Of a stretch of 58,018 bases of DNA, positions 18,774 to 43,355 are shown piece by piece. Positions within the stretch are counted from its first letter, which is position 1. The number at the start of each line of letters is the position of its first letter. The stretch spans positions 1 to 58,018 of the forward strand of contig NZ_JAABNR010000021.1 in assembly GCF_009925085.1 (NCBI RefSeq), written 5' to 3'. A program made the position numbers and the translations under genes. The stretch comes from Stagnihabitans tardus (GTDB lineage Bacteria > Pseudomonadota > Alphaproteobacteria > Rhodobacterales > Rhodobacteraceae). The notes beneath the pieces were generated by a model. That model ran no database searches. It saw only the letters and a program-made list of their open reading frames with translations, and had not been told where the DNA came from.

Positions 18774-18774
18774 T

Positions 18775-19668
18775 ATGAAAGCGAAACTGGGCATTGCCCC
18801 CATCGCCTGGTGGAATGACGACCTGGCCGAACTCTCGGACGATGTGTCCCTGGAGGAGTGCCTGCGCCAGGCCTCCGTCGCGGGCTTTACCGGGATGGAG
18901 ACCGGGCGGCGCTTTCCGATGGATATGGCCGAACTGGGTCCGATCCTGGCGCGGCATGGGATTTCCGTCTGCGGCGGCTGGTTCTCGGGGCTGCTCTTGG
19001 ATGGCGATATCGAGGTCGAAAAGGACCGCATCGCCGCGCAGCATGCCTTCTTCAAGGCGGCGGGGGCTCCTTGCATCGTCTATGGCGAGACGGCGCGCTC
19101 GGTCCAGGGCGTGAAATCCGCGCCCCTGGCCACGAAACCCAAGCTCACCGAGGCCGAGATTGCGACCTACGGCCGCAAGATCTCTGACTTCGCCGACTGG
19201 TGCGCCGGGAATGGCATGCCGATCTCCTATCACCACCACATGGCGGCGGCGATCGAGACGGAAGAGGAGCTGGATTTGCTTATGAAGCACTCCACCGTGC
19301 CGCTTCTCTTCGATGCGGGCCATATGGCCTTTGCGGGTGGAAATAATCTGCGGGTGATCGAGAACCACCACAAGCGCATCACCCATGTCCATACCAAGGA
19401 CATCCGCCAGGCCGTGGTGGATGGGCTGGACCGGAGCCGGGAGTCTTTCCTCGATGCTGTCGTGAAGGGGGCCTTCACCGTGCCGGGTGATGGGTCCTTG
19501 GACTTCGAGGTTTTGGTCAAGGCGCTCGCCGCCAAGGGCTATGAGGGCTGGTTCGTCGTCGAGGCAGAGCAGGACCCGAAGGTCTCTCCGCCCTTGGAGA
19601 TGGCCAAGAAGGGCCACAAGGAGCTGCTGCGGGTCATGGCGGCGGCGGGCTACGAGGTGGCCAAATGA
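18775..19668 (+). CDS. iolE: myo-Inosose-2 dehydratase
   Basis: 297 residues from ATG 18775. It starts LGIAPIAWWNDD, the characteristic IolE N-terminus, and contains SYHHHMAA, LLFDAGHMAFAGG, ITHVHTKDIR and a C-terminal YEGWFVVEAEQDP, all typical of the xylose-isomerase-like TIM-barrel dehydratases that convert 2-keto-myo-inositol to the cyclic trihydroxy-dione used by IolD. His/Asp/Glu residues in these strands bind the metal. The gene lies between iolD and an SDR; its stop overlaps the SDR start (ATGA). Confidence 0.94.
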   Translation: MKAKLGIAPIAWWNDDLAELSDDVSLEECLRQASVAGFTGMETGRRFPMDMAELGPILARHGISVCGGWFSGLLLDGDIEVEKDRIAAQHAFFKAAGAPCIVYGETARSVQGVKSAPLATKPKLTEAEIATYGRKISDFADWCAGNGMPISYHHHMAAAIETEEELDLLMKHSTVPLLFDAGHMAFAGGNNLRVIENHHKRITHVHTKDIRQAVVDGLDRSRESFLDAVVKGAFTVPGDGSLDFEVLVKALAAKGYEGWFVVEAEQDPKVSPPLEMAKKGHKELLRVMAAAGYEVAK

Positions 19669-22801: not shown

Positions 22802-24073
22802 ATGAGCGATGCAACCCGCCGCAGCCTTGCCGACACGCTGGAACTGGACAAGCGCCTCTTTGGCATGATCATCGCCTTTGCGGTGCTCTGCCTGGTGTTT
22901 CAATTCCAGACCGGAGGCACGTTCCTTTCGGCACGCAATATCTTCAACATTTCGGTGCAGACGGTCTCCGTGGGCATCATGGCGACGGGGATGGTCTTCG
23001 TCATCGTCTCGCGCAATATCGACCTCTCGGTGGGTTCGGTGCTGGCAACCTGCTCGGCCCTGATGGGGATGCTGCAGACCCAGTGGCTGGTGCCGGTGAC
23101 CGGGCTTGGGACCGGGACGACGCTGGTCGTCTCCATCCTCTTGGGGCTGGGCGTGGGCACGGCGATGGGGGCGGCCACGGGCTGGATGGTGGGCTATCAG
23201 CGCATCCCCTCCTTCATCGTGACGCTGGGGGGCTTGCTGATCTGGCGCAACGTCGCCTGGTACACGACCAACGGCCAATCGGTCGCGCTGCGCGACCCAA
23301 GGCTTTTGGCCTTCGGCGGGACCGAGGGCGTCATGGGGCCGGAGTGGAGCTGGGTCCTGGGCGGCCTTGCCACCCTGGCCGCAGCCGCAGCCGTGATCGC
23401 GGCGCGGCGTGGCAAGATGCGGCATGGCTTCCTGGTCAAGCCCGTCTGGGCCGAGGGCCTGCTGGTTGCCATGATCGCCGGCGGCATCCTGGGCTTCGTG
23501 GCGCTCGTGAATTCCTATGAAATCCCGGTGGGCAAGCTCAAGCGCATGTTCGAGGCGCAGGGCATGGACGTCCCCGAGGGCTATGTCGCCTATCACGGCT
23601 TGCCGATCTCGGTGCTGATCCTGGTGGCGGTGGCGGTGGCCATGACGGTGATCGCCCGCAAGACAAGGCTGGGGCGCTATATCTATGCCATCGGCGGAAA
23701 CCCGGATGCGGCCGAGCTTTCGGGGATCAACACCCGGATGATGACGGTCAAGATCTTTGCGCTGATGGGGTTCCTTTGCGGGCTTGCGGCTTTGGTGGCC
23801 CAGGCGCGGTTGCAAAGCCATGGCAATGACATCGGCACCTTGGATGAACTCAAGGTCATCGCCGCCGCCGTCATCGGGGGCACGGCCCTGGCCGGTGGGG
23901 TCGGCACGATCTATGGCGCGCTTCTGGGCGCCTTGGTCATGCAATCGCTGCAATCGGGCATGGCCATGATCGGGGTGGACACGCCCTTTCAGAACATCGT
24001 CGTCGGAGGCGTGCTGATCATCGCCGTCTGGATCGACATCTTCTACCGCAAGCGCATGGGGGAACGCACATGA
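22802..24073 (+). CDS. ABC sugar transporter, permease (XylH-like, system 2)
   Basis: 423 residues, longer than the system 1 and 3 permeases and matching the XylH type. Hydrophobic segments occur throughout, with [52 protein letters not shown] and [18 protein letters not shown] as family landmarks. A soluble insert at about 195-250 is usual in XylH-type proteins. The stop overlaps the ATPase start (ATGA). Confidence 0.88.
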
Positions 24074-24813
24074 CACCGCTTCTGGAGATGCGCGACATCT
24101 CGATTTCCTTCGGTGGCATCAAGGCGGTGGATCACGTCACCATCGACCTGCGTCCGGGCGAGGTCGTGGGGCTTCTGGGCCACAACGGCGCGGGCAAGTC
24201 GACGCTGATCAAGTGCCTCTCGGGCGCCTACCAGGCCGACCAGGGCCAGATCCTGATCGAGGGGCGGCCGGTGACCATCCAGAACCCTCGCGACGCCCGC
24301 GCCTTCAACATCGAGACGATCTACCAGACCCTGGCACTCTCGGACAACTTGGACGCCTCGGCCAACCTGTTCCTGGGGCGCGAGATGCTGACGCCCCTGG
24401 GCTTCATGGACGACGCGCGGATGGAGGCCGAGACCCGCCGCATCATGGGTCGCCTGAACCCGAACTTCCGCAAGTTCAACGTGCCGGTCTCGGCGCTGTC
24501 GGGCGGGCAGCGGCAATCGGTGGCCATCGCAAGGGCGGTCTATTTCAACGCCAAGATCCTGATCATGGACGAGCCCACGGCCGCCCTTGGCCCGCACGAG
24601 ACCCAGATGGTGGCGGAGCTGATCCAGGAGCTGAAGGCGCAAGGCCTGGGGATCATCCTGATCGAGCACGACATCCACAATGTGATGAAGCTCTGCGACC
24701 GAGCCTCGGTGATGAAGAACGGGCAACTGGTCGGCACGGTCAAGGTCGACGAGGTGACCGACGAGGAGATCCTGGCCATGATCATTCTCGGCAAGAAACC
24801 GGTGCGCGCATGA
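24070..24813 (+). CDS. ABC sugar transporter, single-domain ATP-binding protein (system 2)
   Basis: 247 residues. Walker A is GHNGAGKST (37-45), signature [15 protein letters not shown], Walker [13 protein letters not shown], and the switch His is in IIEHD-type LIEHDIHNV. Single-domain ATPases pair as homodimers with XylH/FrcC-like permeases, unlike the double-domain ATPase of system 1. The start overlaps the permease stop and the stop overlaps the next start (ATGA in both cases). Confidence 0.9.
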
Positions 24814-31119: not shown

Positions 31120-32112
31120 TCAGCCGAGATCCGCCAACCGCACCGGTTCGCCCTTGGCCAACGACAGGGTTGCGGCTTCGGCCATCGCCAAGGCTGCAAC
31201 GCCGTCCTCAAGCGTCACAGGCACACTTTGGTCAGCGTGGAGGGCACCCACGAAGGCCGCCCATTCCGCGCGGTAGGCGGGCATGTAGCGTTCCAGAAAG
31301 AAATACGTCGGCTTGGCGCTGGTGACGCCGCCCGTGGTCGATTTCACCAGAGTAGATTCCAGCATGTTGCCTGCCTGCAAAAGCCCCTCGGACCCCAGAA
31401 GCTCGACCCGCTGGTCATAGCCATAGACCGCCCTGCGCGAGTTCTTGATCACCGCGATGCGGCCGTCGGCGTAGGTCAGGGTCACGACGGCGGTATCGAC
31501 ATCTCCGGCCGCGCCGATGGCGGGATCGACAATCGAGGAGCCGGTGGCCAAAACCGCAACCGGCGCGGCACCCATCAGGAAATTCGCCATGTCGAAGTCG
31601 TGGATCATCATGTCGCGGAAGATCCCGCCCGAGACCTTGATATAGGCCACCGGCGGCGGGGCGGGGTCGAAGGAGGTGATGGACAGCAGTTCCGCCTTGC
31701 CGATCTCGCCCGCATCCAGGGCGGCTTTCAGCCCGGCGAAGTTCGGGTCGAAGCGGCGGTTGAAGCCGATCATCACCGGGGCGCCACCCACCTTGGCAAG
31801 GCAGGCCTGCGCACGCGCCAGCGACAGATCCACCGGCTTTTCGCAGAGCACCGCCTTGCCCGCGGCCACGGCGCGCTCGATCAGGTCGGAATGGGTGTCG
31901 GTCGAGGTGGCGATCAGCACCGCGTTGATCGAGGGGTCGGCGAGGATCGCATCGACGCTGCGAGCCTCGGCGCCGTATTGGGCGGCGAGCTTGCCCGCAG
32001 CCTCGGCATTGATATCGGCGACCGCCACGAGGCGCGAGCCGGGATGGGTCGAGATCGCGGTGGCATGGACGCCGGCGATCCGGCCGGCGCCGAGGAGAGC
32101 AGTGTTCAGCAT
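31120..32112 (-). CDS. Inositol 2-dehydrogenase-like protein, IolG-type (Gfo/Idh/MocA), copy 3
   Basis: 330 residues from ATG 32112 with AAAGGA upstream; it overlaps the PanB-like gene by 7 bp. LLGAGRIAGVHATAI, CEKPVDLSLARA (Lys), GFNRRFDPNF, RDMMIHDFDMANF (Asp and His) and YGYDQRVELLGS parallel copies 1 and 2, so the triad is intact. Last gene of the hydroxylase/ABC/Rieske operon, which makes it comparable to MocA of rhizopine clusters. It would oxidise the inositol-type product made by the upstream enzymes to a keto form for IolE. Confidence 0.83.
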   Translation of the reverse strand: MLNTALLGAGRIAGVHATAISTHPGSRLVAVADINAEAAGKLAAQYGAEARSVDAILADPSINAVLIATSTDTHSDLIERAVAAGKAVLCEKPVDLSLARAQACLAKVGGAPVMIGFNRRFDPNFAGLKAALDAGEIGKAELLSITSFDPAPPPVAYIKVSGGIFRDMMIHDFDMANFLMGAAPVAVLATGSSIVDPAIGAAGDVDTAVVTLTYADGRIAVIKNSRRAVYGYDQRVELLGSEGLLQAGNMLESTLVKSTTGGVTSAKPTYFFLERYMPAYRAEWAAFVGALHADQSVPVTLEDGVAALAMAEAATLSLAKGEPVRLADLG

Positions 32113-32927
32113 GACTTGTCCTTTGAAAGATCGGCCAGAAGGGCCTGGTATTCGTCGTCCGCCATGGCGACATCGTGTTGCGGCTGCGGATAGGCGCCGG
32201 AGTTCACATCGGCGATGAATTCGCGGAAGGCCGCGATGCGCTCCTCCTGCAGCCGTGCATATTCGGCGGCGAAGTTGCGGTAGGTCTTGGCATGGCGCGG
32301 CTTGTGGCCATCCGTGCAGCCAAGGACGTCCTCGGCGAAAAGGTATTGCGCATCGGCCCCCGGCCCCGCGCCCATGCCCAGCATGATCATGGTTGTATTG
32401 GCGCTGATGAGGGCGCCCAGGCGGTCCGGGACGACTTCCAGCTCGGCGCCGAAACAGCCGATGGATTCCAGGCGTTTCACATGGTCCCAGACGGCCCGGG
32501 CCTCGGAAGCCGTCTTGCCCACGGCGCGCCAGCCGGTCCAGGTGATATAGGAGGGGATCAGACCGACATGGGCCACGACGGGCATGTGGTTGTCGCAAAG
32601 CGCCTTCTGGATATCGAGGCTTGCGGCGCAGTAAAAGCAATCGCCCCCCATGGCGGTGAACTTGAAGGCCGCGCGGAGGTAGTCTTCCGCCGTCGCAAGG
32701 CCTCCGTAAGGGCCGAAGGGCAGGCCGACCTGGACAAAGCAGCGCCCGGCCGCCTCGCGCATCTCCGGCGAGAAGAAGCGGCTCTCGATCGACAGCATAT
32801 GGATGCCAGCCGCATCGGCGGCGGCGGCTTCCTCCAGCGTGGTGACATAAAGCATCGAGATCTTTTCGCCCCGCGCTTTCATGGCGCGCATGTCATGGAC
32901 GGTCGGACGGTTGGCTTTGTGGACCAT
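32106..32927 (-). CDS. PanB-like (ketopantoate hydroxymethyltransferase family) protein, active site altered
   Basis: 273 residues, similar in length and fold pattern to PanB: VGLPFGPYGGLATAEDYLRA, PVVAHVGLIPSYITWTGW, GCFGAELEVVP, MIMLGMGAGPG, DGHKPRHAKTYRNF and SGAYPQPQH. By-eye comparison with E. coli PanB: the metal-binding Asp of VGDS reads Glu (SIES), the Asp of ADLPF reads Gly (VGLPF), and the Lys/Glu pair of VKIEGG is missing (FYCAAS); the base Glu before VP is kept. Normal pantothenate synthesis is therefore unlikely. Set among sugar-catabolic genes, it may be an aldolase or lyase on a keto acid. Function inferred only. Confidence 0.7.
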   Translation of the reverse strand: MVHKANRPTVHDMRAMKARGEKISMLYVTTLEEAAAADAAGIHMLSIESRFFSPEMREAAGRCFVQVGLPFGPYGGLATAEDYLRAAFKFTAMGGDCFYCAASLDIQKALCDNHMPVVAHVGLIPSYITWTGWRAVGKTASEARAVWDHVKRLESIGCFGAELEVVPDRLGALISANTTMIMLGMGAGPGADAQYLFAEDVLGCTDGHKPRHAKTYRNFAAEYARLQEERIAAFREFIADVNSGAYPQPQHDVAMADDEYQALLADLSKDKSC

Positions 32928-32929
32928 GG

Positions 32930-33703
32930 TTACACCGTAAATGCGTTGCGGAAGGCCTCGAGCGCGGCTTCTTCGGAGCCCGAGGCAAAGCCTTCGAGGC
33001 CGACGGGGCCGGAATAGCCCATGGCCTTCAAGGCGCGGGCCACGCCGGGGTAGTTGATCTCGCCAGTCCCAGGCTCATTCCGGCCCGGGTTGTCGGCCAC
33101 CTGGACCTCTCCGATCCAGGGCAGGCAGGCTTGGCACCAGCGGATCAAATCACCCTCGCCGATCTGCGTGTGGTAAAGGTCGAGGTTGATGCGCAGCTGC
33201 GGCCGGTTGACTGCCGAGACGAGGCCCAGCACCGCCGCCGTCGACCCAAAGGGGCAGCCGGGGTGGTCGATGGGGTTCAGGTTCTCCAGCGTGAAGACCT
33301 GGCCCGAGGCCTCGGCCAGGTCACAGATCCGGTGCAGGGTGTCGCGGGCGCGTTGCTCCATCCCCGGGGCGAAGGCGCCGATCCGGGGGATCGGGATCCC
33401 CATGTCCCCCAGCCCCGTGCCATGCAGGTTCAGCCGGTGGACGCCCAGACGCTGGCCCACTTTGGCCGTCTCGGCGGCGGAGGCGAGAAGCATCTCGCAG
33501 CCCTCGGCGTCGGTCAGGCGGCCCTGCAGATAGCCGTTCATGATGGTAAAATTCGCCCCGGTGGCGATCAGCGCGTTGATATCCCAGGCAGGCCAATTCC
33601 ACAGGCCCACGCCGAAACCCATCTCCTTCAGGCGCGCGGCCCGCCAGGCGATGGGCTTGTCGCGCCACAGCATTTCCGCGCAGGCAGCAAGTTGGAAGGT
33701 CAT
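32930..33703 (-). CDS. Hydroxypyruvate isomerase-like TIM-barrel protein
   Basis: 257 residues from ATG 33703, one base after the Rieske stop. FQLAACAEMLW at the start, NLHGTGLG, VFTLENLNPIDHPG, INLDLYHTQIGEGDLI, GEVQVADNPGRNEPGTGEIN and GPVGLEGF are the pattern of hydroxypyruvate isomerase (Hyi) and 2-oxo-tetronate isomerase (OtnI). Conserved Glu residues in the LENLN and LEGF strands are the expected acid/base and metal ligands. Here the substrate may be a keto-inositol or keto-sugar fragment; in rhizopine clusters MocC is another member of this TIM-barrel group. Confidence 0.78.
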   Translation of the reverse strand: MTFQLAACAEMLWRDKPIAWRAARLKEMGFGVGLWNWPAWDINALIATGANFTIMNGYLQGRLTDAEGCEMLLASAAETAKVGQRLGVHRLNLHGTGLGDMGIPIPRIGAFAPGMEQRARDTLHRICDLAEASGQVFTLENLNPIDHPGCPFGSTAAVLGLVSAVNRPQLRINLDLYHTQIGEGDLIRWCQACLPWIGEVQVADNPGRNEPGTGEINYPGVARALKAMGYSGPVGLEGFASGSEEAALEAFRNAFTV

Positions 33704-33704
33704 C

Positions 33705-34016
33705 TCACAGCTCCAGGTAGACCTGGCCATCCTCGACTTTGACGGGGAAGGTCTTCAGGTTGATGCAGGCGGGCGCACGTTTCGCCTCGCCGGTGCGGTA
33801 ATCGAAAGTCGCATTGTGTTTCGGGCATTCGACGCGGCCATCCATCACCAGCCCATCGCAGAGATGGACCTTCTCGTGGCTGCAGATCCCGTCCAGGGCG
33901 TGGAACGTGTCGTCTTCGGAGCGGACGATGATGAAGGTCCGGGCGCCATGGTCGAAGCGGATCATGTCGTCGGCGTCGATATCCTCGGTGGCGCAGGCGC
34001 GAATCCAGGTGGGCAT
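33705..34016 (-). CDS. Rieske [2Fe-2S] ferredoxin, MocE-like
   Basis: 103 residues from ATG 34016, with AAGGAAA upstream. The Rieske ligands are visible: Cys45 and His47 in CSHEKVHL, Cys64 and His67 in CPKHNATFDYRTGE. Small soluble Rieske proteins of this kind pass electrons to oxygenases and hydroxylases. Rhizopine clusters include such a ferredoxin (MocE) serving an oxygenase that removes an O-methyl group. The di-iron membrane hydroxylase at 36983 is the obvious partner. No reductase gene is seen in this operon, so electrons must come from another locus. Confidence 0.87.
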   Translation of the reverse strand: MPTWIRACATEDIDADDMIRFDHGARTFIIVRSEDDTFHALDGICSHEKVHLCDGLVMDGRVECPKHNATFDYRTGEAKRAPACINLKTFPVKVEDGQVYLEL

Positions 34017-34036
34017 GTCGGTTTCCTTGTCGAAGT

Positions 34037-34087
34037 GGTCCGGGCCAGTGGAACGGCCCGGACCGTCGTGATGCGCCCTTGGGCGCA
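34037..34087. promoter_or_regulatory. Two hairpins between ATPase and Rieske genes
   Basis: GGTCCGGGCC (34037-34046) and GGCCCGGACC (34055-34064) form a perfect 10-bp stem with an 8-base loop. Next to it ATGCGCCCTTGGGCGCAT (34070-34087) is a near-continuous palindrome. Neither has a T-tract on the minus strand, so mRNA processing or stability is more likely than termination. Confidence 0.5.
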
Positions 34088-34119
34088 TGTCCGGGGGATG
34101 AATGGGAGAGCCCCCCGGG

Positions 34120-34899
34120 TTACGCTGAAGCCGCGATCTCGGCCTCCAGGGCGGACATCGAGGCGCCACCGGCCATCAGGTCGGTGATCTCTTCGCGGGT
34201 CTTCTCGCCCTTGTGGAAGTCGGCGGCGACCGCGCCCCGGATCAGGACGGCGAAGTGATCGCCCACCGCCATGGCATGCATGACCTGGTGGGTGATGAAG
34301 ATGACGGCGAGGCCGCGCTTCTTGGCCTCGTTGACGATGCGCAGGACATGGGTGGCCTGTTTCACGCCCAAGGCGGCGGTGGGCTCGTCCAGGATCAGCA
34401 CCCGTGCGCCGAAATGGACGGCGCGGGCGATGGCCAAGGCCTGACGCTCGCCGCCCGAGAGGCCGCCGACCAGCCTGTCGCCGTCGTCGATCCTTGTGAT
34501 GCCGAAGTTCTGCACCGCCTTGACCGCGATTTCGTTGGCCTTCCGACGGTCGTAGATGCGGAAGGGCCCAACCCAGCGCGTGGGCTCGCGCCCGACAAAG
34601 AAGCTGCGGCCGATCGACATCAGGGGGAAGGTCCCGCCGAACTGGTGGACCGTGGCGATGCCGTGGTCAGCGGCCTCGCGCGGGTTGCGGAAGGTGACTG
34701 GCTTGCCATCCATCACCATCTGGCCCGAGGTCGGCTGATGCACGCCCGACAAAAGCCGGATCACGGTGGATTTGCCCGCGCCATTGTCGCCCAGCAGGCA
34801 CAGGACCTCGCCCGCCTTCACATCCAGGTTGATGTCATGCAGCACATCGATGGGGCCAAAGCTTTTGTTGACACCCTGAAGGGACAGGATCGTGCTCAT
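34120..34899 (-). CDS. ABC sugar transporter, single-domain ATP-binding protein (system 3)
   Basis: 259 residues. Walker A GDNGAGKST (37-45), signature LSGGERQALAIARAV, Walker [13 protein letters not shown], and switch His in VIFITHQV. It is a single-domain CUT2 ATPase like that of system 2, overlapping the permease stop (ATGA at 34896-34899). It powers uptake by the permease at 34896 and belongs to the hydroxylase/Rieske operon. Confidence 0.88.
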   Translation of the reverse strand: MSTILSLQGVNKSFGPIDVLHDINLDVKAGEVLCLLGDNGAGKSTVIRLLSGVHQPTSGQMVMDGKPVTFRNPREAADHGIATVHQFGGTFPLMSIGRSFFVGREPTRWVGPFRIYDRRKANEIAVKAVQNFGITRIDDGDRLVGGLSGGERQALAIARAVHFGARVLILDEPTAALGVKQATHVLRIVNEAKKRGLAVIFITHQVMHAMAVGDHFAVLIRGAVAADFHKGEKTREEITDLMAGGASMSALEAEIAASA

Positions 34900-35903
34900 T
34901 TCGCGACCTTTTTTGGGGCAGAGGCCAGGGCCATCTTGCGGAAGGTGTTGTTCATCAGGACGGCGCAGAGGAGCAGCACGCCGATGATCAGCGACGACCA
35001 GTTGCGGTCGAAATCGGTGTAGTAGATGCCCTGGGTCACGATGGCGAAGGTGATCGTGCCGAAGAAGATCCCCACGACAGACCCAAAGCCCCCGGTCAGC
35101 AGGACGCCTCCCACGACGACCGAGATGATGGCGTTGAAGATGAAGCTTTGCCCGCCCGCCACCTGGGCGGAGTTATACAGGATCGCCTGGCACATGCCGA
35201 CGAAGGCGGCCGAGGTGGAGGACAGGACGAAGAGCAGCATGGTCATCCGCTCGGTCGGGATGCCAGCGTTGCGGGCGGAAACCTTGTCGCCGCCCATGGC
35301 GAAGATCCAGTTCCCATAGCGCGAGAAGTGGACAAACAGGATATAACCCGCGGTCACCGCCAGCCACCACAGCACCATGACCTGCACCTGGCCGCCCATG
35401 ACGAAGTCACCAAAGATCGCCTTGGCGGGGCCGGTGACGGTCAGAGCCACCGAGGTGGATTTGGTGATCAGCACGGTCAGGCCGAGGACCACGCCCTGGA
35501 CCGCAAACAAAGTCCCCAGCGTCACGATCAAGGAGGGCACGGCGGACTTGATCACCATGTAACCGTTGATCAGGCCGATCATAACGCCGAAGGTCATGGT
35601 CACGGCGATGCCCGCCCAGATCGGCAGCCCGTAATGGCCCGACAGGACGGCGACGGTCATGGCGCCAAAGGGCACCATGGCGCCCACGGAAATGTCCAGC
35701 TCTCCGGCGATCATCAACAGGCCGACCGGAATGGCGATCAGGCCGAGGTTGGCGGCCACATTCATCCAGGAGGCCATCCCGCCCGGCAGAAGGAAGGTCA
35801 CGCCGCCGAAGATGGCGAAGAAGCCAAGGACAGCGACAAGGCCAAGGAAAGCCCCAGCTTCAGGACGGCGCAAGAGCCCGCCCAGGGTGGAATTGCGGTT
35901 CAT
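34896..35903 (-). CDS. ABC sugar transporter, permease (CUT2 family, system 3)
   Basis: 335 residues from ATG 35903 (5 bp after GGGGGAG; the ATG one codon earlier is too close). Membrane segments begin at AGAFLGLVAVLGFFAIFGGV. Family motifs: MIAGELDISVGAMVPFGAM, LINGYMVIKSAVPSLIVTLG, FAMGGDKVSARNAGIP and VVVGGVLLTGGFGSVVG. It forms the channel of system 3. Relatives carry ribose, inositol and similar sugars. Confidence 0.86.
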   Translation of the reverse strand: MNRNSTLGGLLRRPEAGAFLGLVAVLGFFAIFGGVTFLLPGGMASWMNVAANLGLIAIPVGLLMIAGELDISVGAMVPFGAMTVAVLSGHYGLPIWAGIAVTMTFGVMIGLINGYMVIKSAVPSLIVTLGTLFAVQGVVLGLTVLITKSTSVALTVTGPAKAIFGDFVMGGQVQVMVLWWLAVTAGYILFVHFSRYGNWIFAMGGDKVSARNAGIPTERMTMLLFVLSSTSAAFVGMCQAILYNSAQVAGGQSFIFNAIISVVVGGVLLTGGFGSVVGIFFGTITFAIVTQGIYYTDFDRNWSSLIIGVLLLCAVLMNNTFRKMALASAPKKVAK

Positions 35904-35924
35904 CATGTCTCCCCCGGAAAGATG

Positions 35925-35948
35925 GGCCCGCCGCGCGCACGGCGGGCC
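35925..35948 (-). promoter_or_regulatory. Intercistronic hairpin after the system 3 binding-protein gene
   Basis: GGCCCGCCG (35925-35933) and CGGCGGGCC (35940-35948) form a perfect 9-bp GC stem around CGCGCA. It lies directly after the binding-protein stop and before the permease, as in systems 2 and 4. It probably protects the binding-protein mRNA or cuts back transcription. Confidence 0.6.
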
Positions 35949-35955
35949 TGCAGGC

Positions 35956-36912
35956 TTAGCGTGCGCCCTTGGCGACGCCTGCGAGGGTCGCATCGATGTT
36001 GGACGCATCGACGATGCCCGGGCCGGTCAGCACCGGGTTGGTCGGCAGGTCGGTGCCGAAGTCGATGGCCGAGGCCAGGATCGAGACGGCCAGGTAGCTT
36101 TGCAGATAGGGCTGCTGGTCGATGGCAAAGGACTGCGTGCCGGCCTTGATCCGGTCGAGCCCCGCCTGGTTCATGTCGAAGGTCCCGAGCGAGATCGTCC
36201 GTCCGGCCTGGGCCACGGCGATGGCCGCGCTGTCGGCATCGCCCGCGCTGATCGTGATGACGCCGTCGATGGTCTCGTCCTTCAGCATCTCGGCCTTGAT
36301 GGCCTCAGCCACGGCGGTCGGGTCGCCGAACGAGGTCGAGGGCAGAGGGAGCTGCGCGCCCTTGCCGCCCGCGGCGGTGATGGCGTCGATCACGCCCTTG
36401 CAGCGCGCCTCGGTATTGGCCGCGCCCGGAAGGGTGTTGACGCACAGCACGTTCTTCTGCCCGGCCTTGCCGAAATAGGCGCCGCCCGCCTGCCCCGCCA
36501 CATATTCATCCGAGCCCACGTAGTTGATGGCGCCCAGTTCCTTGGCCTTCTCCGCGCCGCCCGCGTTCATCAGGATGACCTTGATGCCCGCTGCCACGGC
36601 TTCCTTGATCGCCGGATCCTCGGCCTCCGGCACCCAGTTCGGGATGACCAGGCCGTCGACCTCCTGGGCGATGGCGGTGCGGATCAGCTGGACCACGTCG
36701 GGGGCGAAGTTGTCGTAATTCACCAGGCGCAGGTAGTTGACCGAGCCGCCATTGGCCACGACCGCCGGGGTCGCATCGTCGATCCCCTTCTTGATGATGT
36801 TCCAGAAGGCATCGTCGTTCGAGCCCCCGATCACCGCGATATCGGCGGCCATCGCCGAGCTTGCCATCAGCGTGGCGAGCGCCGCCGCCTTCAAGGTCCG
36901 TGCAAAAGTCAT
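35956..36912 (-). CDS. ABC sugar transporter, periplasmic substrate-binding protein (system 3)
   Basis: 318 residues. The signal peptide (about 22 residues) ends AMA-AD. The mature protein has the type 1 binding-protein pattern: IAVIGGSNDDAFWNIIKKG, DGLVIPNWVPEAEDP, VILMNAGG, VGSDEYVAGQAGGAYF, CVNTLPGAANTEARC, GVITISAGDADSAAIA and LGTFDMNQAGLDRI. This type includes ribose-, inositol- and rhizopine-binding proteins (MocB). Second gene of the operon after the hydroxylase, so its ligand is probably the hydroxylase substrate. Confidence 0.85.
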   Translation of the reverse strand: MTFARTLKAAALATLMASSAMAADIAVIGGSNDDAFWNIIKKGIDDATPAVVANGGSVNYLRLVNYDNFAPDVVQLIRTAIAQEVDGLVIPNWVPEAEDPAIKEAVAAGIKVILMNAGGAEKAKELGAINYVGSDEYVAGQAGGAYFGKAGQKNVLCVNTLPGAANTEARCKGVIDAITAAGGKGAQLPLPSTSFGDPTAVAEAIKAEMLKDETIDGVITISAGDADSAAIAVAQAGRTISLGTFDMNQAGLDRIKAGTQSFAIDQQPYLQSYLAVSILASAIDFGTDLPTNPVLTGPGIVDASNIDATLAGVAKGAR

Positions 36913-36961
36913 GGTCTCTCCTCCCGTTGTACCGGTGCTCCGGCGGTTGCTTTGGGTGTGT

Positions 36962-36980
36962 CCCGGGCCTCCCGCCCGGG
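36962..36980 (-). promoter_or_regulatory. Hairpin between the hydroxylase and binding-protein genes
   Basis: CCCGGGC (36962-36968) and GCCCGGG (36974-36980) form a 7-bp stem with a 5-base loop just after the hydroxylase stop. No T-tract follows on the minus strand, so partial termination or mRNA stabilisation is possible. Confidence 0.4.
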
Positions 36981-36982
36981 GA

Positions 36983-37990
36983 TCAGCGCTTGGCGTTGGC
37001 CCGCGCCTTCTTGGCCTCGAAGCGCGCTTCCATGCGGGCTTCGGCTTCCTTGGTGCCGTCGTGCCAATAGCCGAACCACTTATCGAGTGGGATCAGACCA
37101 TCGCCGCCGTAATTCACCTCGAAATACTTGTGGTGCAGGTAATGGGCGTAAGCATGGGATTCCAAAGGCGTATCCTCGGTGATCTCCAGCTTGTCGAAGC
37201 CTATATGCCCGTTCACCGCGCCAAACCCCGCGACATGCAGCTGAAACATCGCCACGATCGGATTGGAGGGGATGACCAGGTGCCAGAGCGCCACGGCATG
37301 GTACAGGAAACCTTCCACCGGATGCATCGACAGCGACGACCAGGGCGAGGGGTTGACCGAGTTGTGGTGGACGGAATGGACGTGCTTGTACAGGAAGTCC
37401 GTGTGGATCAGCCGGTGGATGCAGAAGAAATGCACCTCGTGGATCACCGGGCACAGCAGCACCAGAGCGGCCAGGTAGACGGGATTGGCGCTCCAGGTCA
37501 GCCAGGGGACATAGCCCTTGGCGAAGGCGTAAAGGAAGATCACCTCGACCAGGGTCCAGAGCGGGATCGAGATGAAGAACGACCGCAGGAAGTTGTCGAT
37601 GTTCTGGCTCTTGAACCAGAAGACATCCGAGGGCTGATCGGCCGGGAACTTGCCGTTGTACTTGAACCGCGTGCCCTGCTTGCGCTTGACGTACCAGAAG
37701 AACTCGACCGAGCCGTAGAGGGCGAAGATCGCCGCCGCATTGACCGCGTAAAGCCAGAGCGCCCAGCCCCAGGAGAGCGTTTGCAGCGTCTCGACCGGCG
37801 GGACGACGTAGAACCAGTAGAGGAGCGCCGTCGCAATGTGGAAGGCATTCCACGGGAAGAGGTATCCCGGGATGAACTTCAGGAACTGGCCCAGGCGGAA
37901 GGGGACGGCCCAGGAGGAGGCGATCTGCAATGGCTCTTTCGGCGCCCAATCGCCCCTCTTGTTCCGCGTGCCGAATTGCAGGTCGTCCAT
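36983..37990 (-). CDS. Membrane di-iron hydroxylase (sterol desaturase/fatty acid hydroxylase superfamily)
   Basis: 335 residues. Hydrophobic segments at about 50-65, 75-95, 138-158 and 170-190 frame His clusters that bind two irons: HRLIH (192-196), HSVHH (205-209) and HYLHH (283-287), with further His at 184, 187 and 231. This arrangement defines the fatty acid hydroxylase superfamily. The best context clue is the operon: sugar ABC transporter, Rieske ferredoxin and inositol-type dehydrogenase, so a sugar-like substrate is likelier than a lipid. It may hydroxylate an O-methyl group, releasing formaldehyde. First gene of the operon, divergent from the LacI gene at 38193. Its role in demethylation is inference. 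Confidence 0.83.
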   Translation of the reverse strand: MDDLQFGTRNKRGDWAPKEPLQIASSWAVPFRLGQFLKFIPGYLFPWNAFHIATALLYWFYVVPPVETLQTLSWGWALWLYAVNAAAIFALYGSVEFFWYVKRKQGTRFKYNGKFPADQPSDVFWFKSQNIDNFLRSFFISIPLWTLVEVIFLYAFAKGYVPWLTWSANPVYLAALVLLCPVIHEVHFFCIHRLIHTDFLYKHVHSVHHNSVNPSPWSSLSMHPVEGFLYHAVALWHLVIPSNPIVAMFQLHVAGFGAVNGHIGFDKLEITEDTPLESHAYAHYLHHKYFEVNYGGDGLIPLDKWFGYWHDGTKEAEARMEARFEAKKARANAKR

Positions 37991-38149
37991 CTTTCCCTCC
38001 TTCAGGCAAAGCGAGGCCAGGGGGCGAAATCATCGCCCCTGCGGTCGCTTGGCTGTCCGAAACTCTCCCCCGGGGCCGCAGCCCGTCGTTGCGGCCGACA
38101 TTGCCCGCTTGACGGGGCTTCGATCAAGATGCGATGTTTCACGCCATGG

Positions 38150-38194
38150 ATTTCGTCTCAGCGTATCACGCGAGACCGGAAAATGAGATGAAAT
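38150..38194. promoter_or_regulatory. Inverted repeat between the hydroxylase operon and the LacI gene
   Basis: ATTTCGTCTCA (38150-38160) and TGAGATGAAAT (38184-38194) are inverted copies with one mismatch and 23 bp between them; the second overlaps the LacI start codon. It could be an operator for either divergent gene. It does not look like the TGGAAC-type sites found downstream. Confidence 0.35.
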
Positions 38195-39215
38195 GACACG
38201 TCCAACCATCCCCGACCTCGCCAAAGCCGCCGGAGTTTCGGTGGCCACCGTCAATCGCGTCCTGGCGGGGGCCGAGAATGTGCGCCAGCCGACCCGGCTT
38301 TTGGTGCAAGAGGCGGCGGCGCGCATCGGCTTTTATGGCCTCGGCACGATCGAGGCCAAGGTCGCAGCCCACCGGCCGCGCTTTCGATTCGGCGTGCTTC
38401 TGTTGCAGCCACATCGCCAGTTCTACCAGACCTGCGCCGCCGCCATCCGCGAGGCCGCCGCCGCGCTGGAGTCGGTCGATGTCGAGGTCCGGATCGAGTT
38501 CCTCGACGACCTCTCGCCGCAGAACACCGCCGCCCGCATCCTGGCGCTCGGCGAGGACTGTCATGCGGTCTGCGTCACCACGGCCGTCCATCCCGTGGTG
38601 ACCGAGGCGGTCGAGACCCTGCAAGCCCGAGGCCTGCCGGTCTTTGCGCTGATCGGTCAGCTCTCGGCGGCGGGGCTGGTGCATTACGTGGGCCTGGACA
38701 ACTGGAAGGTCGGGCGGACCTCGGCCTGGGCGGTGCATCACCTCTGTCAGGGACCGGGCAAGATCGGCATCCTGATGGGCAATCCGCGCTATCGGAACCA
38801 GGAGATGAACGAGGCCGGCTTCCGGTCCTATTTCCGCGAATATGCCCCGGAGTTCACCCTGCTGGAGCCGCTTTCGACCTTCGAATCCGCCGCCGTGGCC
38901 GAGGAGATGACGGAACGGCTCTTGACCCAGAACCCCGACCTGAAGGCCCTTTTCGTCTCGGGCGGAGGGATCACCGGGGCCATGGCGGCCCTGCGGCGGG
39001 CGGGGCGCAACCTCGTCGTCGTGGGCTATGACCTGATGGACAGCACCCGGGCCGGGCTTCTGGACGGCACCCTCTCCGTCGTGATCGCCCATCCCCTGCG
39101 GCAACTGGCCGATGCGCTGATCGGGGGGATGATCCGGGCCGCGAAGTCTCCGGCCGATGGGGTGAACCACACCCGCATCGTGCCCTTCCAGATCCACACG
39201 CGCGAGAACATCTGA
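38193..39215 (+). CDS. LacI-family transcriptional regulator
   Basis: 340 residues. LacI HTH and hinge: PTIPDLAKAAGVSVATVNRV, LAGAENVRQPTR and IGFYG. The effector domain is of the type 1 periplasmic-binding kind (GLPVFALIGQLS, HYVGLDNWKVGRTSAW, IGILMGNPRYRNQEMNEAGF, ALFVSGGGITGAM, VVGYDLMD). A typical C-terminal FQIHTRENI follows. The gene lies just upstream of an operon whose promoter has two TGGAAC-type half-symmetric sites; the same pair recurs at 44364-44397, so it probably controls both operons. A free sugar or sugar acid is the likely inducer. Confidence 0.88.
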   Translation: MTRPTIPDLAKAAGVSVATVNRVLAGAENVRQPTRLLVQEAAARIGFYGLGTIEAKVAAHRPRFRFGVLLLQPHRQFYQTCAAAIREAAAALESVDVEVRIEFLDDLSPQNTAARILALGEDCHAVCVTTAVHPVVTEAVETLQARGLPVFALIGQLSAAGLVHYVGLDNWKVGRTSAWAVHHLCQGPGKIGILMGNPRYRNQEMNEAGFRSYFREYAPEFTLLEPLSTFESAAVAEEMTERLLTQNPDLKALFVSGGGITGAMAALRRAGRNLVVVGYDLMDSTRAGLLDGTLSVVIAHPLRQLADALIGGMIRAAKSPADGVNHTRIVPFQIHTRENI

Positions 39216-39307: not shown

Positions 39308-40420
39308 ATGACCGAGATCAAAGTGGCGGTTCTGGGCGCCAGTGGCTGGATGGGCAAGGTTCACACCATGGCCTGGGCCACCTATCCGCATTTCTTCGCC
39401 GATGCGCCGCGCGCGCGGGTCGTGGCTTTGGTCGAGGCCAATCCGGCAGCGGCGGCCGATCTGGCGGCGCGCGCGCCCGGCGCCCGGATCCTGCAGGACT
39501 GGCAGTCGGTCGTGGCCGATCCCGAAATCGACCTGATCGACATCTGCCTGCCCGATCACCTGCATTATCCCGTCGCCAAGGCGGCGCTTGAGGCGGGCAA
39601 GCATGTCTATTGTGAAAAGCCGCTCGCCGATACAGCCGCCGAGGCGCGGGAGCTTGCCGACCTCGCCCGGGCCAAGGGCGTCATCAGCCGCGTGGGCCAT
39701 GCCTTCCCGCGCAACCCGGTCCATGACCTCGCGCGCGAGATCATCCAATCGGGCGAGATCGGCGAAATCCGCCTCTTCAAGGCCTGCCAGCATATCGATG
39801 TCTTCGGCGACCCGCTCGCCCCCTTCATGTGGCGCGCCGATGGCAAGCTGGCCCCCACGGGGATCATCGGTGACACGGGCTCCCATGTCTTCAGCTTCAT
39901 GGAATTCCTGGTGGGCCGCGTCTCCTCGCTGATCGCCGAGAACCTGATCCTGACCCGGAGCCGCCCCGGGGGAGAAGTCACCAATCCCGATGCCACCAAC
40001 CTTCTTTGCCGGTTCGAGAACGGCGCCTCGGGGATCATCGACTTCAGCCGCGTGGCCACCGGGCGCAAATTCCGCCAGACCTATGAGATCTATGGCACCA
40101 AGGGCAGCCTCGCCTACGATTACGACCAGGTGAACCGGCTGCAGTTCTACACCAACGATGACCGCGAAGGCCGCCGGGGCTACCGTGCCATCGACGTGGG
40201 GCCAGAGAACCCCACCTACCGCGCCTTCCTGCCCCTGCCGAATTTCGCGCTTGGCTATAACGAGACCAAGATCATCGAGGCCTGTGAGGTCGCCCGATCC
40301 ATCGCCACGGGCCGCCCGTCCTGGCCGGATTTCGACACCGGCCACCACATTTGCCAGATCGTCGACGCCTGCATGACCTCGGCCGCCACCCGCGCCTGGG
40401 TCGATATCCCGGGGGCCTGA
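39308..40420 (+). CDS. Gfo/Idh/MocA family oxidoreductase
   Basis: 370 residues from ATG 39308 after [52 protein letters not shown] (Lys), VGHAFPRNPVHDLARE, IIGDTGSHVFSFMEFLVG and VATGRKFRQTYEIYGTKGSL fit the long sugar-dehydrogenase branch and resemble the protein at 11497-12609. First gene of the operon leading to KDG kinase and KDPG aldolase, so it may oxidise the incoming sugar or a keto-sugar. Confidence 0.8.
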   Translation: MTEIKVAVLGASGWMGKVHTMAWATYPHFFADAPRARVVALVEANPAAAADLAARAPGARILQDWQSVVADPEIDLIDICLPDHLHYPVAKAALEAGKHVYCEKPLADTAAEARELADLARAKGVISRVGHAFPRNPVHDLAREIIQSGEIGEIRLFKACQHIDVFGDPLAPFMWRADGKLAPTGIIGDTGSHVFSFMEFLVGRVSSLIAENLILTRSRPGGEVTNPDATNLLCRFENGASGIIDFSRVATGRKFRQTYEIYGTKGSLAYDYDQVNRLQFYTNDDREGRRGYRAIDVGPENPTYRAFLPLPNFALGYNETKIIEACEVARSIATGRPSWPDFDTGHHICQIVDACMTSAATRAWVDIPGA

Positions 40421-40422
40421 CG

Positions 40423-42453
40423 ATGGAGATGACCCAAGAGATCCTCGACGCCCTGACCGACATCGAGATGCCGCGCCTGCCCCCCGAGACCCCGCCCACC
40501 GAGACCGCGCAGGGCCTGCCCTTGATCCGTGCCGCCGCCGTGGTGGTGGGCAGCGGGGCAGCGGGCCTGCGTGCGGCCGTCGAGATGAAGCGGCGCGGCG
40601 TCGATGTGGTGGTGATCAGCCAAAGCGCCTGGGGCGGGACCTCGGCCTGTTCGGGCTCGGACAAGCAGACGCTGCACACCGCCAATACCGCCGACCGGGG
40701 CGACAATTTCCGGTCGATGGCCCAGGCCATCGGCGCGGGTGGCGCGATGGATGCGGACACGGCCTATGTCGAGGCCGTGGGCTCGGTGCGCGCCATGGCC
40801 TCCTTGCAATACATGGGCCTGCCCCTGCCGCAGGACGCCCTGGGCGGAACCCTGCGTTACCAGACCGACCATGACGAGGTCGGCCGCGCGACCTCTTGCG
40901 GGCCGCGCACCTCTCGGCTGATGGTCAAGGTCCTGGCGGAAGAGGCGTTGCGCCTTGGCGTGCCGATCCTGAACCACACGACCGCCGTCTCGATCCTGCG
41001 GAAGTCCCGGGTGACCGGGCTTCTGGCGATGCGGATGGCGGCGCGCAGCGAGGCCAATCCCTATGGGCTGACGGTCTTCGCGGCCCCTGTCGTGGTGCTG
41101 GCCGGGGGCGGGCCCGGGGAGCTTTACCGCGACTCTGTCTATCCCAACGGCTGTTTCGGCGCGCTTGGCCTCGCGCTCGAGGCCGGGATCACGCTGGTCA
41201 ACCTCACCGAAAGCCAGTTCGGCATCGGCACGCGGCGCGAGGGCTTTCCCTGGAACCTCTCGGGCACCTATGTCCAGGCCCTGCCGCATCTCTTCTCGGT
41301 CGATGCCGAGGGCCGCGAACATGCCTTCCTGAAGGACTACTACCGCACGACGCAAGAGATGGCGTCGAACATCTTCCGCAAGGGCTATCAATGGCCCTTC
41401 CATGCGACGCGGATGCTGGATTTCGGGTCAAGCCTCATCGACCTTGCGATCTTCCGCGAGACGCAAATGGGCCGCCGGGTATTCATGGATTTCAACCGCA
41501 ATCCGGAAGCGATCGACCAGGCCTTCTCGCTGGACCGCCTTGACCCCGATGTCCGCACCTATCTGGCCACGGCGGGCGCCGTGCAAGCGCTTCCCATCGA
41601 CCGCCTGCGCCACATGAACCCCTTGGCGATCGAGCTTTACCGCCGCTACAAGGTCGACATCGCGGCCGAGCCCTTGGAGTTCGCCGTCAACAACCAGCAC
41701 ATGAACGGCGGCGTGGCGGTGGACAGCTGGGGGAGAAGCTCCTTGCCCGGCTGCTATGCGGTCGGCGAGGCGGCTGGCACCCATGGCGTCACCCGTCCCG
41801 GGGGCGCCGCCTTGAACGCGGGCCAGGTCTTCGGCACCCGCGTGGCCGAACATGCGGCGGGCGCGGAGACGGCTGTGGCCGCGCCCGAGGGGCTGGCCGA
41901 GGCGCTGACCGACCTGCGCGCCGCTTTGCGGCCCGGGGGTCTTGGCGTCAAGGCGCTGAAGGACGAGATCCAGGCCCGGATGAGCGACCATGCCGGCATC
42001 CTCTGCACCCCCGACGAGGTCCGCACGGCCCGCCTGGCTTCGGAGGCGCTGGTGGCAAGGGTCCAGGCGCAGGGCGTGGCCCCCTCCCGCCCCGCCGAGG
42101 CGGCGCGTGCGGTTCAGTGGCGCCAGATGGCCCTGGCCTCGCAGGCCGTGCTGACGGCCTTGGACCACTATATCTCCCAGGGCGCCGGCTCCCGCGGGGC
42201 GCGGGCGATCTGCGAGCCCTCGGGCACCGGCCTGCCGCAAAGCGCGCTTGGGCCCCTGGAGAGCTACCGCTTCCGCGAAGAACGGGCCCAGGACCGCGAG
42301 GCGCAGATGTTGGTCCGCTGGCAGGACGGCGCGCTGCACCTGAGCACGCGGCCCAACCGCGCCCTTGATCCCGCGCGGAGCTTCTTCGAACGCGACTGGC
42401 CCGCCTGGCTGACCGGCGCCATCCGCGCCACCCCCTGGCCGGAGGCGCAATGA
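40423..42453 (+). CDS. FAD-dependent oxidoreductase of the fumarate reductase/succinate dehydrogenase flavoprotein type
   Basis: 676 residues from ATG 40423, two bases after the preceding stop. The FAD motif is VVVGSGAAGLRAAVEMKRRG at about 37-56, followed by GGTSACSGSDKQTLH. A second FAD-contact region near the C-terminal half reads MNGGVAVDSWGRSSLPGCYA and GEAAGTHGVTRPGGAALNAG, typical of the SdhA/FrdA/aspartate oxidase family. There is no signal peptide and no iron-sulphur partner gene. Substrate unknown; in a sugar-acid operon it may oxidise or dehydrogenate a sugar lactone or acid. The stop overlaps the KDG kinase start (ATGA). Confidence 0.78.
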   Translation: MEMTQEILDALTDIEMPRLPPETPPTETAQGLPLIRAAAVVVGSGAAGLRAAVEMKRRGVDVVVISQSAWGGTSACSGSDKQTLHTANTADRGDNFRSMAQAIGAGGAMDADTAYVEAVGSVRAMASLQYMGLPLPQDALGGTLRYQTDHDEVGRATSCGPRTSRLMVKVLAEEALRLGVPILNHTTAVSILRKSRVTGLLAMRMAARSEANPYGLTVFAAPVVVLAGGGPGELYRDSVYPNGCFGALGLALEAGITLVNLTESQFGIGTRREGFPWNLSGTYVQALPHLFSVDAEGREHAFLKDYYRTTQEMASNIFRKGYQWPFHATRMLDFGSSLIDLAIFRETQMGRRVFMDFNRNPEAIDQAFSLDRLDPDVRTYLATAGAVQALPIDRLRHMNPLAIELYRRYKVDIAAEPLEFAVNNQHMNGGVAVDSWGRSSLPGCYAVGEAAGTHGVTRPGGAALNAGQVFGTRVAEHAAGAETAVAAPEGLAEALTDLRAALRPGGLGVKALKDEIQARMSDHAGILCTPDEVRTARLASEALVARVQAQGVAPSRPAEAARAVQWRQMALASQAVLTALDHYISQGAGSRGARAICEPSGTGLPQSALGPLESYRFREERAQDREAQMLVRWQDGALHLSTRPNRALDPARSFFERDWPAWLTGAIRATPWPEAQ

Positions 42454-43355
42454 CCCCGAAGCTTTGCGCCATCGGTGAGGCGATGATCGAACTGGCCCCG
42501 GTCGAGGGCGGGCTTTACGCCCGGGGCTTTGCGGGCGACACGTTCAACACGGCCTGGCACATGGCCCAGGTCCTCGGCCCCCGCGCCCGGGTCGGCATGG
42601 TGACGCGGCTGGGGCGGGACGCGCTGTCGGATGCCTTTGCGGCCGAGATGGTGGCCGATGGGCTGGATGTCTCGGGCGTCTCGCGCGACGATCACCGCCG
42701 GATGGGGCTTTACCTGATCGAGCTCGATGGCGTCGAGCGCAGCTTTCACTACTGGCGCGAGACCTCGGCCGCGCGCCACCTGGCCGATGACCCCCAGGCG
42801 CTGGAGGCCGCGCTGACGGGCGCATCGCTCATCCACCTCTCGGGGATCACCCTGGCGATCCTGGCGCCCCCGGCGCGCGAAACGCTGTTTTCCGCCCTGG
42901 CGCGTACGCGGTCCCAAGGTGCCCGGGTGTCGTTCGACCCCAATATCCGCGCCCGGCTCTGGCCTTCGCCCGAGGAGCTGCGCCAGACCCTGACCGCGAT
43001 CCTGCCGCTCGTCGACATCGCCCTGCCCAGCTTCGACGACGAGGAGACGCATTTCGGCGATACCTCGCCCGAGGCCACGCTGAAGCGCTTCCAGGCGGCG
43101 GGCGTGACGGAGGTCGTCGTTAAGAACGGCGCCGGGCCGGTGACTTGCCACGCGGGCCAGATCGAGACCCCGCCCGTGTCGGAGATCCGCGACACGACCG
43201 GCGCGGGGGATGCCTTCAACGCGGGCTACCTTGCTGCCCGCATGATGGGGCACCCCGTGGACCGGGCGATCCGCGCGGGCCAGGCGCTCTCCTCCGTGGT
43301 CCTGCGCCACCCCGGCGCCCGGGCGCCGAAATCCGCCCTCCTGCCGCTTGACTGA
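42450..43355 (+). CDS. kdgK: PfkB-family kinase, 2-keto-3-deoxygluconate kinase-like
   Basis: 301 residues. CAIGEAMIELAP at the start, GMVTRLGRDALSDAF, FHYWRETSAAR (typical of KDG kinases), SFDPNIRARLWPS and the C-terminal PfkB signature DTTGAGDAFNAGYLAA with the catalytic Asp. KDG kinase makes 2-keto-3-deoxy-6-phosphogluconate, the substrate of the next gene's product. Overlap with the flavoprotein stop shows tight coupling. Confidence 0.87.
   Translation: MTPKLCAIGEAMIELAPVEGGLYARGFAGDTFNTAWHMAQVLGPRARVGMVTRLGRDALSDAFAAEMVADGLDVSGVSRDDHRRMGLYLIELDGVERSFHYWRETSAARHLADDPQALEAALTGASLIHLSGITLAILAPPARETLFSALARTRSQGARVSFDPNIRARLWPSPEELRQTLTAILPLVDIALPSFDDEETHFGDTSPEATLKRFQAAGVTEVVVKNGAGPVTCHAGQIETPPVSEIRDTTGAGDAFNAGYLAARMMGHPVDRAIRAGQALSSVVLRHPGARAPKSALLPLD

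Follow-up and report, generated by a model that had tools for sequence, protein, structure and literature searches.

A conserved operon of Stagnihabitans tardus that probably uses a PF04116 membrane di-iron oxygenase to demethylate a methylated cyclitol

The genome of the alphaproteobacterium Stagnihabitans tardus (4.59 Mb) includes a contig, NZ_JAABNR010000021.1 (assembly GCF_009925085.1), of which positions 1 to 58,018 were analysed here as a single window of 58,018 nucleotides; between 31120 and 37990 this window carries an operon of eight minus-strand genes whose content points to the import and oxidative demethylation of a methylated cyclitol. Adjacent genes overlap by up to 7 bases or are separated by at most 103 bases. 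The leading gene (36983-37990) encodes a membrane di-iron oxygenase of 335 residues, proposed to be O-demethylating, that matches PF04116 (63.8 bits, cut-off 31). It is followed by a CUT2-type periplasmic substrate-binding protein (35956-36912; Peripla_BP_4), which comes closest to a protein that binds myo-inositol and to the rhizopine binding-protein family, and by the permease (refined limits 34896-35906; PF02653, BPD_transp_2) and ATPase (34120-34899; PF00005, ABC_tran; 259 residues with one ATPase domain) of an ATP-binding cassette importer. The remaining genes encode a MocE-family Rieske [2Fe-2S] ferredoxin of 103 residues (refined limits 33705-34016; Rieske; TIGR02377 157.4, cut-off 136.15), a xylose-isomerase-like TIM barrel that resembles hydroxypyruvate isomerase and falls under every NCBIfam cut-off displayed (refined limits 32930-33703; PF01261, AP_endonuc_2), a PanB-like protein in which the PanB metal site is lost (32106-32927; Pantoate_transf) and the inositol 2-dehydrogenase IolG (refined limits 31120-32112; GFO_IDH_MocA; TIGR04380 416, cut-off 355). 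A divergent LacI-family regulator on the plus strand (38193-39215; PF00356 and PF13407), which adjoins the oxygenase in many relatives, shares with the operon a regulatory region at 37991-38192. All of the genes that an original prediction, made from the letters of the window, had placed between 31120 and 37990 are present there on one strand with confirmed family matches, including the MocE-like character of the 103-residue ferredoxin and the IolG type of the dehydrogenase.

PF04116 is the sole Pfam family of the window oxygenase, and all 60 members of alignment A1, the window included, match it at E 0.01. The histidine clusters HRLIH, HSVHH and HYLHH, described as intact in the original prediction, are present and conserved: across 143 core sequences including the window, H192, H196, H205, H208, H209, H223, H262, H286 and H287 are invariant and H283 is kept in 99%. 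A further set of residues (N112, H184, E185, N210 and H279) is common to 92-97% of the same core sequences and occurs in none of the 12 distant relatives. No curated NCBIfam model matched the oxygenase at up to E 10, a PDB sequence search gave no meaningful match, and a Foldseek search with its AlphaFold2 model (pLDDT 92.8) returned nothing significant, the hydroxylase domain of Scs7p standing seventh at E 3; with no significant match, the structure tells nothing about the substrate. A tight grouping with lipid enzymes, named beforehand as the outcome that would speak against a demethylating role, thus did not appear in the NCBIfam, PDB and Foldseek comparisons, which involved no tree. The family offers a possible chemical parallel. 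Alkylglycerol monooxygenase, which like other PF04116 enzymes has the histidine-cluster pattern of the window oxygenase, cleaves an ether by hydroxylation next to the oxygen. It and other PF04116 enzymes belong to the same Pfam family as the window oxygenase, from which they differ in that the latter has a proposed small, imported, polar substrate and a Rieske ferredoxin as its donor; the solved PF04116 members offer no close sequence or fold match.

To describe the distribution of the operon, we compared 161 stretches around relatives of the oxygenase: 122 with an oxygenase of at least 55% identity, 6 at 47-55% and 33 below 47%. Presence was scored by tblastn as any match above 55 bits within a stretch of at most 25 kb, and the ATPase and dehydrogenase counts obtained in this way include unrelated paralogues. 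Duplicates and sub-stretches were left out (L001, L002, L005-L033, L101, L102, L111, L116, L119 and L197), one duplicate pair (L169, L182) and 18 other near-identical oxygenase pairs were kept among the 122, and tests were repeated on 103 representatives after removing oxygenases 95% alike. The full set of eight genes is kept in order and strand in 39 of the 122 stretches (the window and an annotated Gemmobacter fulvus plasmid among them), which indicates that the grouping is not due to chance. Among the 122, MocE-type ferredoxins are found in 92, PanB-like genes in 73, a ferredoxin reductase in 32, purU in 18 and folD in 7; at 47-55% identity one stretch has the ferredoxin and one the PanB-like gene, and below 47% the ferredoxin occurs once, the PanB-like gene twice, folD once and purU not at all. 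Other layouts exist: in several rhizobia and Paracoccus the order is LacI, oxygenase, MocE, binding protein, reductase and TIM barrel, with some members missing in some genomes, and L043, L046 and L048 combine LacI, the PanB-like gene, the oxygenase and either the ferredoxin or the binding protein, with no transporter nearby.

Of 295 genomes sampled from the family to which S. tardus belongs, 105 have oxygenase matches at E 0.001 or better, distant members included; samples of the class and of the phylum gave close matches (E 1e-75) in 7 of 385 and 10 of 398 genomes, both counts including the genome of the window. Rhodobacteraceae are numerous among the 80 closest relatives, and tblastn located relatives in 113 plasmid records that are chiefly rhizobial (Sinorhizobium 31, Rhizobium 22, Bradyrhizobium 16). 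Contig 36 of the S. tardus genome carries a second such cluster, whose oxygenase is 63% identical to that of the window.

The closest known parallel is the mocDEF system of rhizopine catabolism, which likewise combines a membrane di-iron oxygenase with a MocE-family ferredoxin, a Gfo/Idh/MocA dehydrogenase, a TIM barrel and a periplasmic binding protein. MocD is described as the rhizopine oxygenase that converts 3-O-methyl-scyllo-inosamine (3-O-MSI) to scyllo-inosamine (SI) and is placed among membrane desaturases (PMC2593844), and rhizopine catabolism through mocDEF is reported to depend on the inositol pathway (PMC5789663, PMC2593844, PMC10107442). In Rhizobium etli CIAT 652 an annotated mocD stands in the order LacI, mocD, mocEa, mocFa and PanB-like gene, and the order is identical on pRL11 of R. 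johnstonii 3841 and in Sinorhizobium meliloti ml66, so that these three annotated loci share with the window both a LacI regulator and a PanB-like gene. The oxygenases of all three belong to PF00487 (136.2 bits for mocD of R. etli CIAT 652), whereas the window oxygenase matches PF04116 alone; further differences from mocDEF are a LacI regulator in place of MocR, the lack of a reductase in the window operon and a binding protein that reaches 157.5 bits on the rhizopine model NF052284, far under its cut-off of 420. PF00487 is itself a membrane di-iron family. The original prediction was right that a membrane hydroxylase fills the oxygenase slot of a moc-like cluster, here one of PF04116, but the contrast with annotated MocD is one between two membrane di-iron families.

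The two oxygenase families, PF04116 and PF00487, thus appear to occupy one slot with the same partners (LacI, MocE, reductase and PanB-like protein). We examined 60 further PanB-like loci from the bacterial family of the window, which represent 61 of 107 listed places and were picked as not already lying beside a PF04116 relative, so that the following proportion is valid for that choice alone: 45 of the 60 have a PF00487 relative within 3 kb, 37 of these with a MocE-type ferredoxin too. One of the remaining 15 has a PF04116 relative and 14 have neither type, 5 of the 14 still with a ferredoxin; L204, whose PF04116 oxygenase lies across the record start, is counted among the neither-type loci. 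About 27 other places among the 107, mostly weak, were left out, and several of them lie beside a PF04116 match. The occurrence of PanB-like loci with either type of oxygenase indicates that the PanB-like protein accompanies the oxygenase module regardless of family. We regard the window operon as probably a variant of MocDEF that draws its oxygenase from another family, in which the step that would be new in kind is that of the PanB-like protein; the original prediction had named this protein without giving it a role, whereas its gene now looks central.

A mocD-type module with a PF00487-type oxygenase, MocE ferredoxin, PanB-like protein and Gfo/Idh dehydrogenase converges on, and adjoins, the second oxygenase cluster of the S. 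tardus genome (12.2-16.0 kb of L034, G000:C36:1-16000), and contig 5 carries a third module, in which a PF00487-type oxygenase is joined by a ferredoxin and a PanB-like gene (L234, G000:C5:16000-26000). Elsewhere, one PanB-like gene that neighbours a ferredoxin and a mocD-type oxygenase is interrupted early by an in-frame stop codon (about 4.5-5.3 kb of L208, G099:C9:27500-37500).

Genes of one-carbon metabolism accompany some of the related operons. One PurU example (TIGR00655 333 bits, cut-off 285.95), one FolD example (NF010785 479.6, cut-off 396) and two S-(hydroxymethyl)glutathione dehydrogenases (TIGR02818 590 and 627, cut-off 544) were confirmed. Among the 122 stretches, purU or folD is found in 18 of 73 with a PanB-like gene and in 0 of 49 without one (P 4e-5), and the association persists after removal of near-identical oxygenases (12 of 57 versus 0 of 46, P 5e-4). 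Formaldehyde dehydrogenase at 60% identity or more has the opposite distribution, with 0 of 73 and 2 of 49 (L096 and L166; matches of 25-28% identity in L052, L154 and L162 were left uncounted). These counts suggest two alternative outlets for the one-carbon unit, folate where the PanB-like gene is present and glutathione where it is absent, the latter represented by just two cases. The position of purU varies: it lies downstream of the reductase, divergently upstream together with the reductase, or after IolG, and other orders occur in the Comamonadaceae metagenome-assembled genome L158 and in Leptothrix L175; this variety argues that the link was not inherited as one fixed arrangement. Outside the counts, a Neotabrizicola plasmid has its oxygenase at the record end (L045), and the operon resumes past the record start (L204) with genes for the binding protein, transporter, ferredoxin, TIM barrel, reductase, PanB-like protein, folD, purU and iolG. 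FolD and PurU are described as acting after folate-linked demethylation in nicotine breakdown (PMC3891541), where they serve a demethylating step as they may in window-type operons; the nicotine demethylase is N-methylaminobutyrate oxidase, whereas the system described here would employ a membrane oxygenase and a PanB-like partner (PMC3891541). Judged by these gene associations, purU, folD and formaldehyde dehydrogenase in or beside some related operons point to the release of one-carbon units and lend O-demethylation independent support.

The PanB-like protein shares with ketopantoate hydroxymethyltransferase (PanB) its Pfam family, its fold (the structure model is confident, at 94.7, and its best fold matches are PanB structures) and the active-site positions H136 and E181, in Escherichia coli PanB numbering (as for D45, D84, K112 and E114 below). 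It scores 80.2 bits on TIGR00222, under the cut-off of 207.55, whereas the true PanB of the same genome, on another contig, scores 317. Among 135 sequences, one from the window and the rest from its relatives, the metal-site positions are mostly replaced, D84 by Gly in 121, K112 by Tyr in 127 and E114 by Ala or Ser in 116, and the D45 motif is gapped in 134 of the 135, a result that depends on the alignment; H136 is retained in all 135 and E181 in 134. The loss of the metal site disfavours hydroxymethylation of a keto acid, and the presence of purU and folD as neighbours favours folate chemistry.

Several observations connect the operon to inositol. The best solved relative of the binding protein is 4ru1 (E 1.4e-38), described as a verified myo-inositol transporter (PMC10747050). 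The inositol pathway genes that the original prediction had reported nearby are confirmed on the plus strand of the window as iolD, encoding the pathway hydrolase (16920-18773; TIGR04377 815 bits, cut-off 715), and iolE, encoding inosose dehydratase (18763-19668; TIGR04379 384 bits, cut-off 290). Across 290 genomes (G292 was left out), iolD occurs in 22 of 23 with an oxygenase of at least 55% identity, compared with 128 of the remaining 267 (P 2.8e-6, ignoring kinship). It also lies within 30 kb of at least 13 of 83 PanB-like places, counting iolD places among the matches listed, against about 1.6 expected on the rough assumption of 1.3 copies per 4.0 Mb; the 83 places are the 107 listed minus the 23 weakest and one fragment. 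The co-occurrence with iolD, the kinship of the binding protein and the presence of IolG in the operon together favour a cyclitol. O-methyl inositols are the abundant ones among natural methylated cyclitols. In many plants, methylated cyclitols are reported to account for a large part of the carbohydrates (PMC5889025), and in Mimosa root exudate pinitol is reported to have had the highest concentration of the components measured (PMC5789663).

We hypothesize, and consider it likely, that the operon imports a methylated cyclitol, that the membrane di-iron oxygenase removes its methyl group, that the remainder enters inositol breakdown and that the PanB-like protein handles the one-carbon unit. 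The hypothesis builds on the gene content, the conserved operon, the di-iron ligands, the partners shared with mocD loci and the linkage to one-carbon and inositol genes, and from these we infer which substrate is taken up, that its methyl group is hydroxylated and what the PanB-like protein does. The substrate, most likely a plant mono-O-methyl inositol (pinitol, ononitol or a relative), would be sensed by the LacI regulator and taken up by the importer; the sequence data do not tell O-methyl inositols apart for certain from methylated inosamines or methylated sugars. The MocE-type ferredoxin would then pass electrons to the PF04116 oxygenase, which would hydroxylate the methyl carbon to give a hemiacetal whose collapse would yield the free cyclitol and a one-carbon unit. 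We propose, as the most speculative step, that the PanB-like protein hands this unit to tetrahydrofolate, after which FolD and PurU would make formate; no PurU above its cut-off is found in the genome of the window, so there the PurU step must take another route, possibly through formate-tetrahydrofolate ligase, which this genome encodes, as it does formaldehyde dehydrogenase, at places unlinked to the operon. The freed inositol would be oxidised by IolG, its product isomerised or dehydrated by the TIM barrel, and the iol genes would finish the pathway. The oxidative demethylation of a cyclitol put forward in the original prediction is thus supported by the one-carbon genes near related operons, the partners common to mocD loci, the excess of iolD and the inositol- and rhizopine-like binding protein. 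A broader claim is possible, if on balance doubtful: that the PanB-like protein represents a novel type of enzyme, a PanB relative without a metal site that moves the methyl carbon directly from a hydroxylated ether (or as formaldehyde) onto tetrahydrofolate, serving as partner to two families of membrane di-iron oxygenase in a general, formaldehyde-sparing module for oxidatively demethylating methylated cyclitols and compounds like them.

Other explanations share parts of this evidence. The same chemistry could act on a rhizopine-type substrate, that is, a methylated or N-methylated aminocyclitol such as 3-O-methyl-scyllo-inosamine, which would suit the MocE score above the family cut-off, the rhizopine model as the best NCBIfam match of the binding protein and the mostly rhizobial plasmid records; yet that match lies far below the model cut-off, an aminotransferase and a MocR-type regulator are both absent among the operon genes, and the 80 closest relatives include many Rhodobacteraceae, and we judge such a substrate unlikely. 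A sugar substrate, for instance a hexose or pentose methylated at the 3-O position, would agree with the general CUT2 sugar type of the importer and with the likeness of the TIM barrel to sugar isomerases, but is made very unlikely by IolG above the inositol 2-dehydrogenase cut-off, by the co-occurrence of iolD and by the inositol bound by the nearest solved binding protein. The origin of the one-carbon unit can also be read differently. PanB forms or cleaves a hydroxymethyl bond, and the PanB-like protein might release the unit by cleaving a hydroxymethyl group from the substrate in a retro-aldol reaction, the oxygenase preparing for this by hydroxylating a ring or chain carbon. That purU and folD follow the presence of the PanB-like gene fits this scheme, but the metal site is gone, the formaldehyde dehydrogenases of L096 and L166 stand in operons free of the PanB-like gene, where the one-carbon unit seems to be released independently of it, and mocD, described as the oxygenase for 3-O-MSI to SI (PMC2593844), has the same partners; we give the scheme little credence. 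Finally, the oxygenase might be a lipid or hopanoid hydroxylase that merely happens to lie in a sugar operon, in line with a Pfam family named after lipid enzymes and with the database label of its relatives, sterol desaturase family. Its position at the head of a conserved catabolic operon that also encodes an importer and a ferredoxin, the lack of any curated match or meaningful PDB match, and the observation that relatives below 47% identity seldom have the operon partners render this highly improbable, and we rejected it for want of a lipid context and a curated match.

Several points nonetheless weigh against demethylation of a methylated cyclitol as set out above. No ferredoxin reductase of the MocF type is found among the genes of 31120-37990; 32 of the 122 related stretches have one, and a homologue of 41% identity lies elsewhere in the same genome (G000:C11). 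The PanB-like gene is absent from 49 of the 122 stretches and the ferredoxin from 30. In 14 of these 30 the sequence stops within some 6 kb on the downstream side of the oxygenase, and in the other 16 it does not; these 16, among them L059, L060 and L100 (an annotated Pararhizobium plasmid), are true counter-examples at the sensitivity of tblastn. They, and the chiefly rhizobial plasmid records, make our main hypothesis slightly less favoured and a rhizopine-type substrate slightly more so. The gene purU occurs in just 18 of 122 stretches, all from rhizobial and betaproteobacterial kin and none from the Rhodobacteraceae of the set. The iolD statistic takes no account of kinship, folate chemistry for a PanB-like protein that has lost the PanB metal site is a guess, and the sequence and structure libraries searched held no biochemically characterised close relative of the oxygenase.

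In the portions of the open-licence papers on this theme that were available, no bacterial gene set for removing the methyl group of methylated cyclitols is described, nor is this operon or the pairing of PanB-like proteins with these oxygenases. If our hypothesis is correct, the operon supplies such a gene set, gives an oxygenase family annotated as sterol desaturase a role on a soluble substrate and suggests a function, open to testing, for a widespread protein that now carries the label of a pantothenate enzyme; the annotated mocD-type loci with a PanB-like gene would seem to serve the same wider purpose.

A search for a single LacI operator shared by the upstream regions of relatives found just a weak recurring 9-mer, TTGATTTGA, present in 27 of 56 regions; the window has a partial match and no exact copy, and the repeat, which may form part of a LacI operator, is a lead only.

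Outside the operon proper, a distant PF04116 oxygenase directly follows a PanB-like gene in Bradyrhizobium sp. 172 (L201, 43% identity) and in Leisingera sp. M527 (L202, 29% identity), the latter pair with no sugar genes among its annotated neighbours; the pairing may be older than any role in cyclitol breakdown. Mimosa symbionts are reported to have a fatty-acid hydroxylase preceded by a nod box that is induced in pinitol-dominated exudate (PMC5789663); these hydroxylases were set aside as a lead, being less than 40% identical to other bacterial proteins and under control like that of nod genes (PMC5789663). Both CUT2-type importers of the window (34120-34899 and 24070-24813) have single-domain ATPases, of 259 and 247 residues, and the sugar-ATPase models most like them are about 500 residues long. 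Beyond the regulator, the genes at 39308-43355 form an apparent sugar-acid operon with a levoglucosan-dehydrogenase-like Gfo/Idh protein, a fumarate-reductase-like flavoprotein and a KDG-kinase-like protein, none of them above a curated cut-off.

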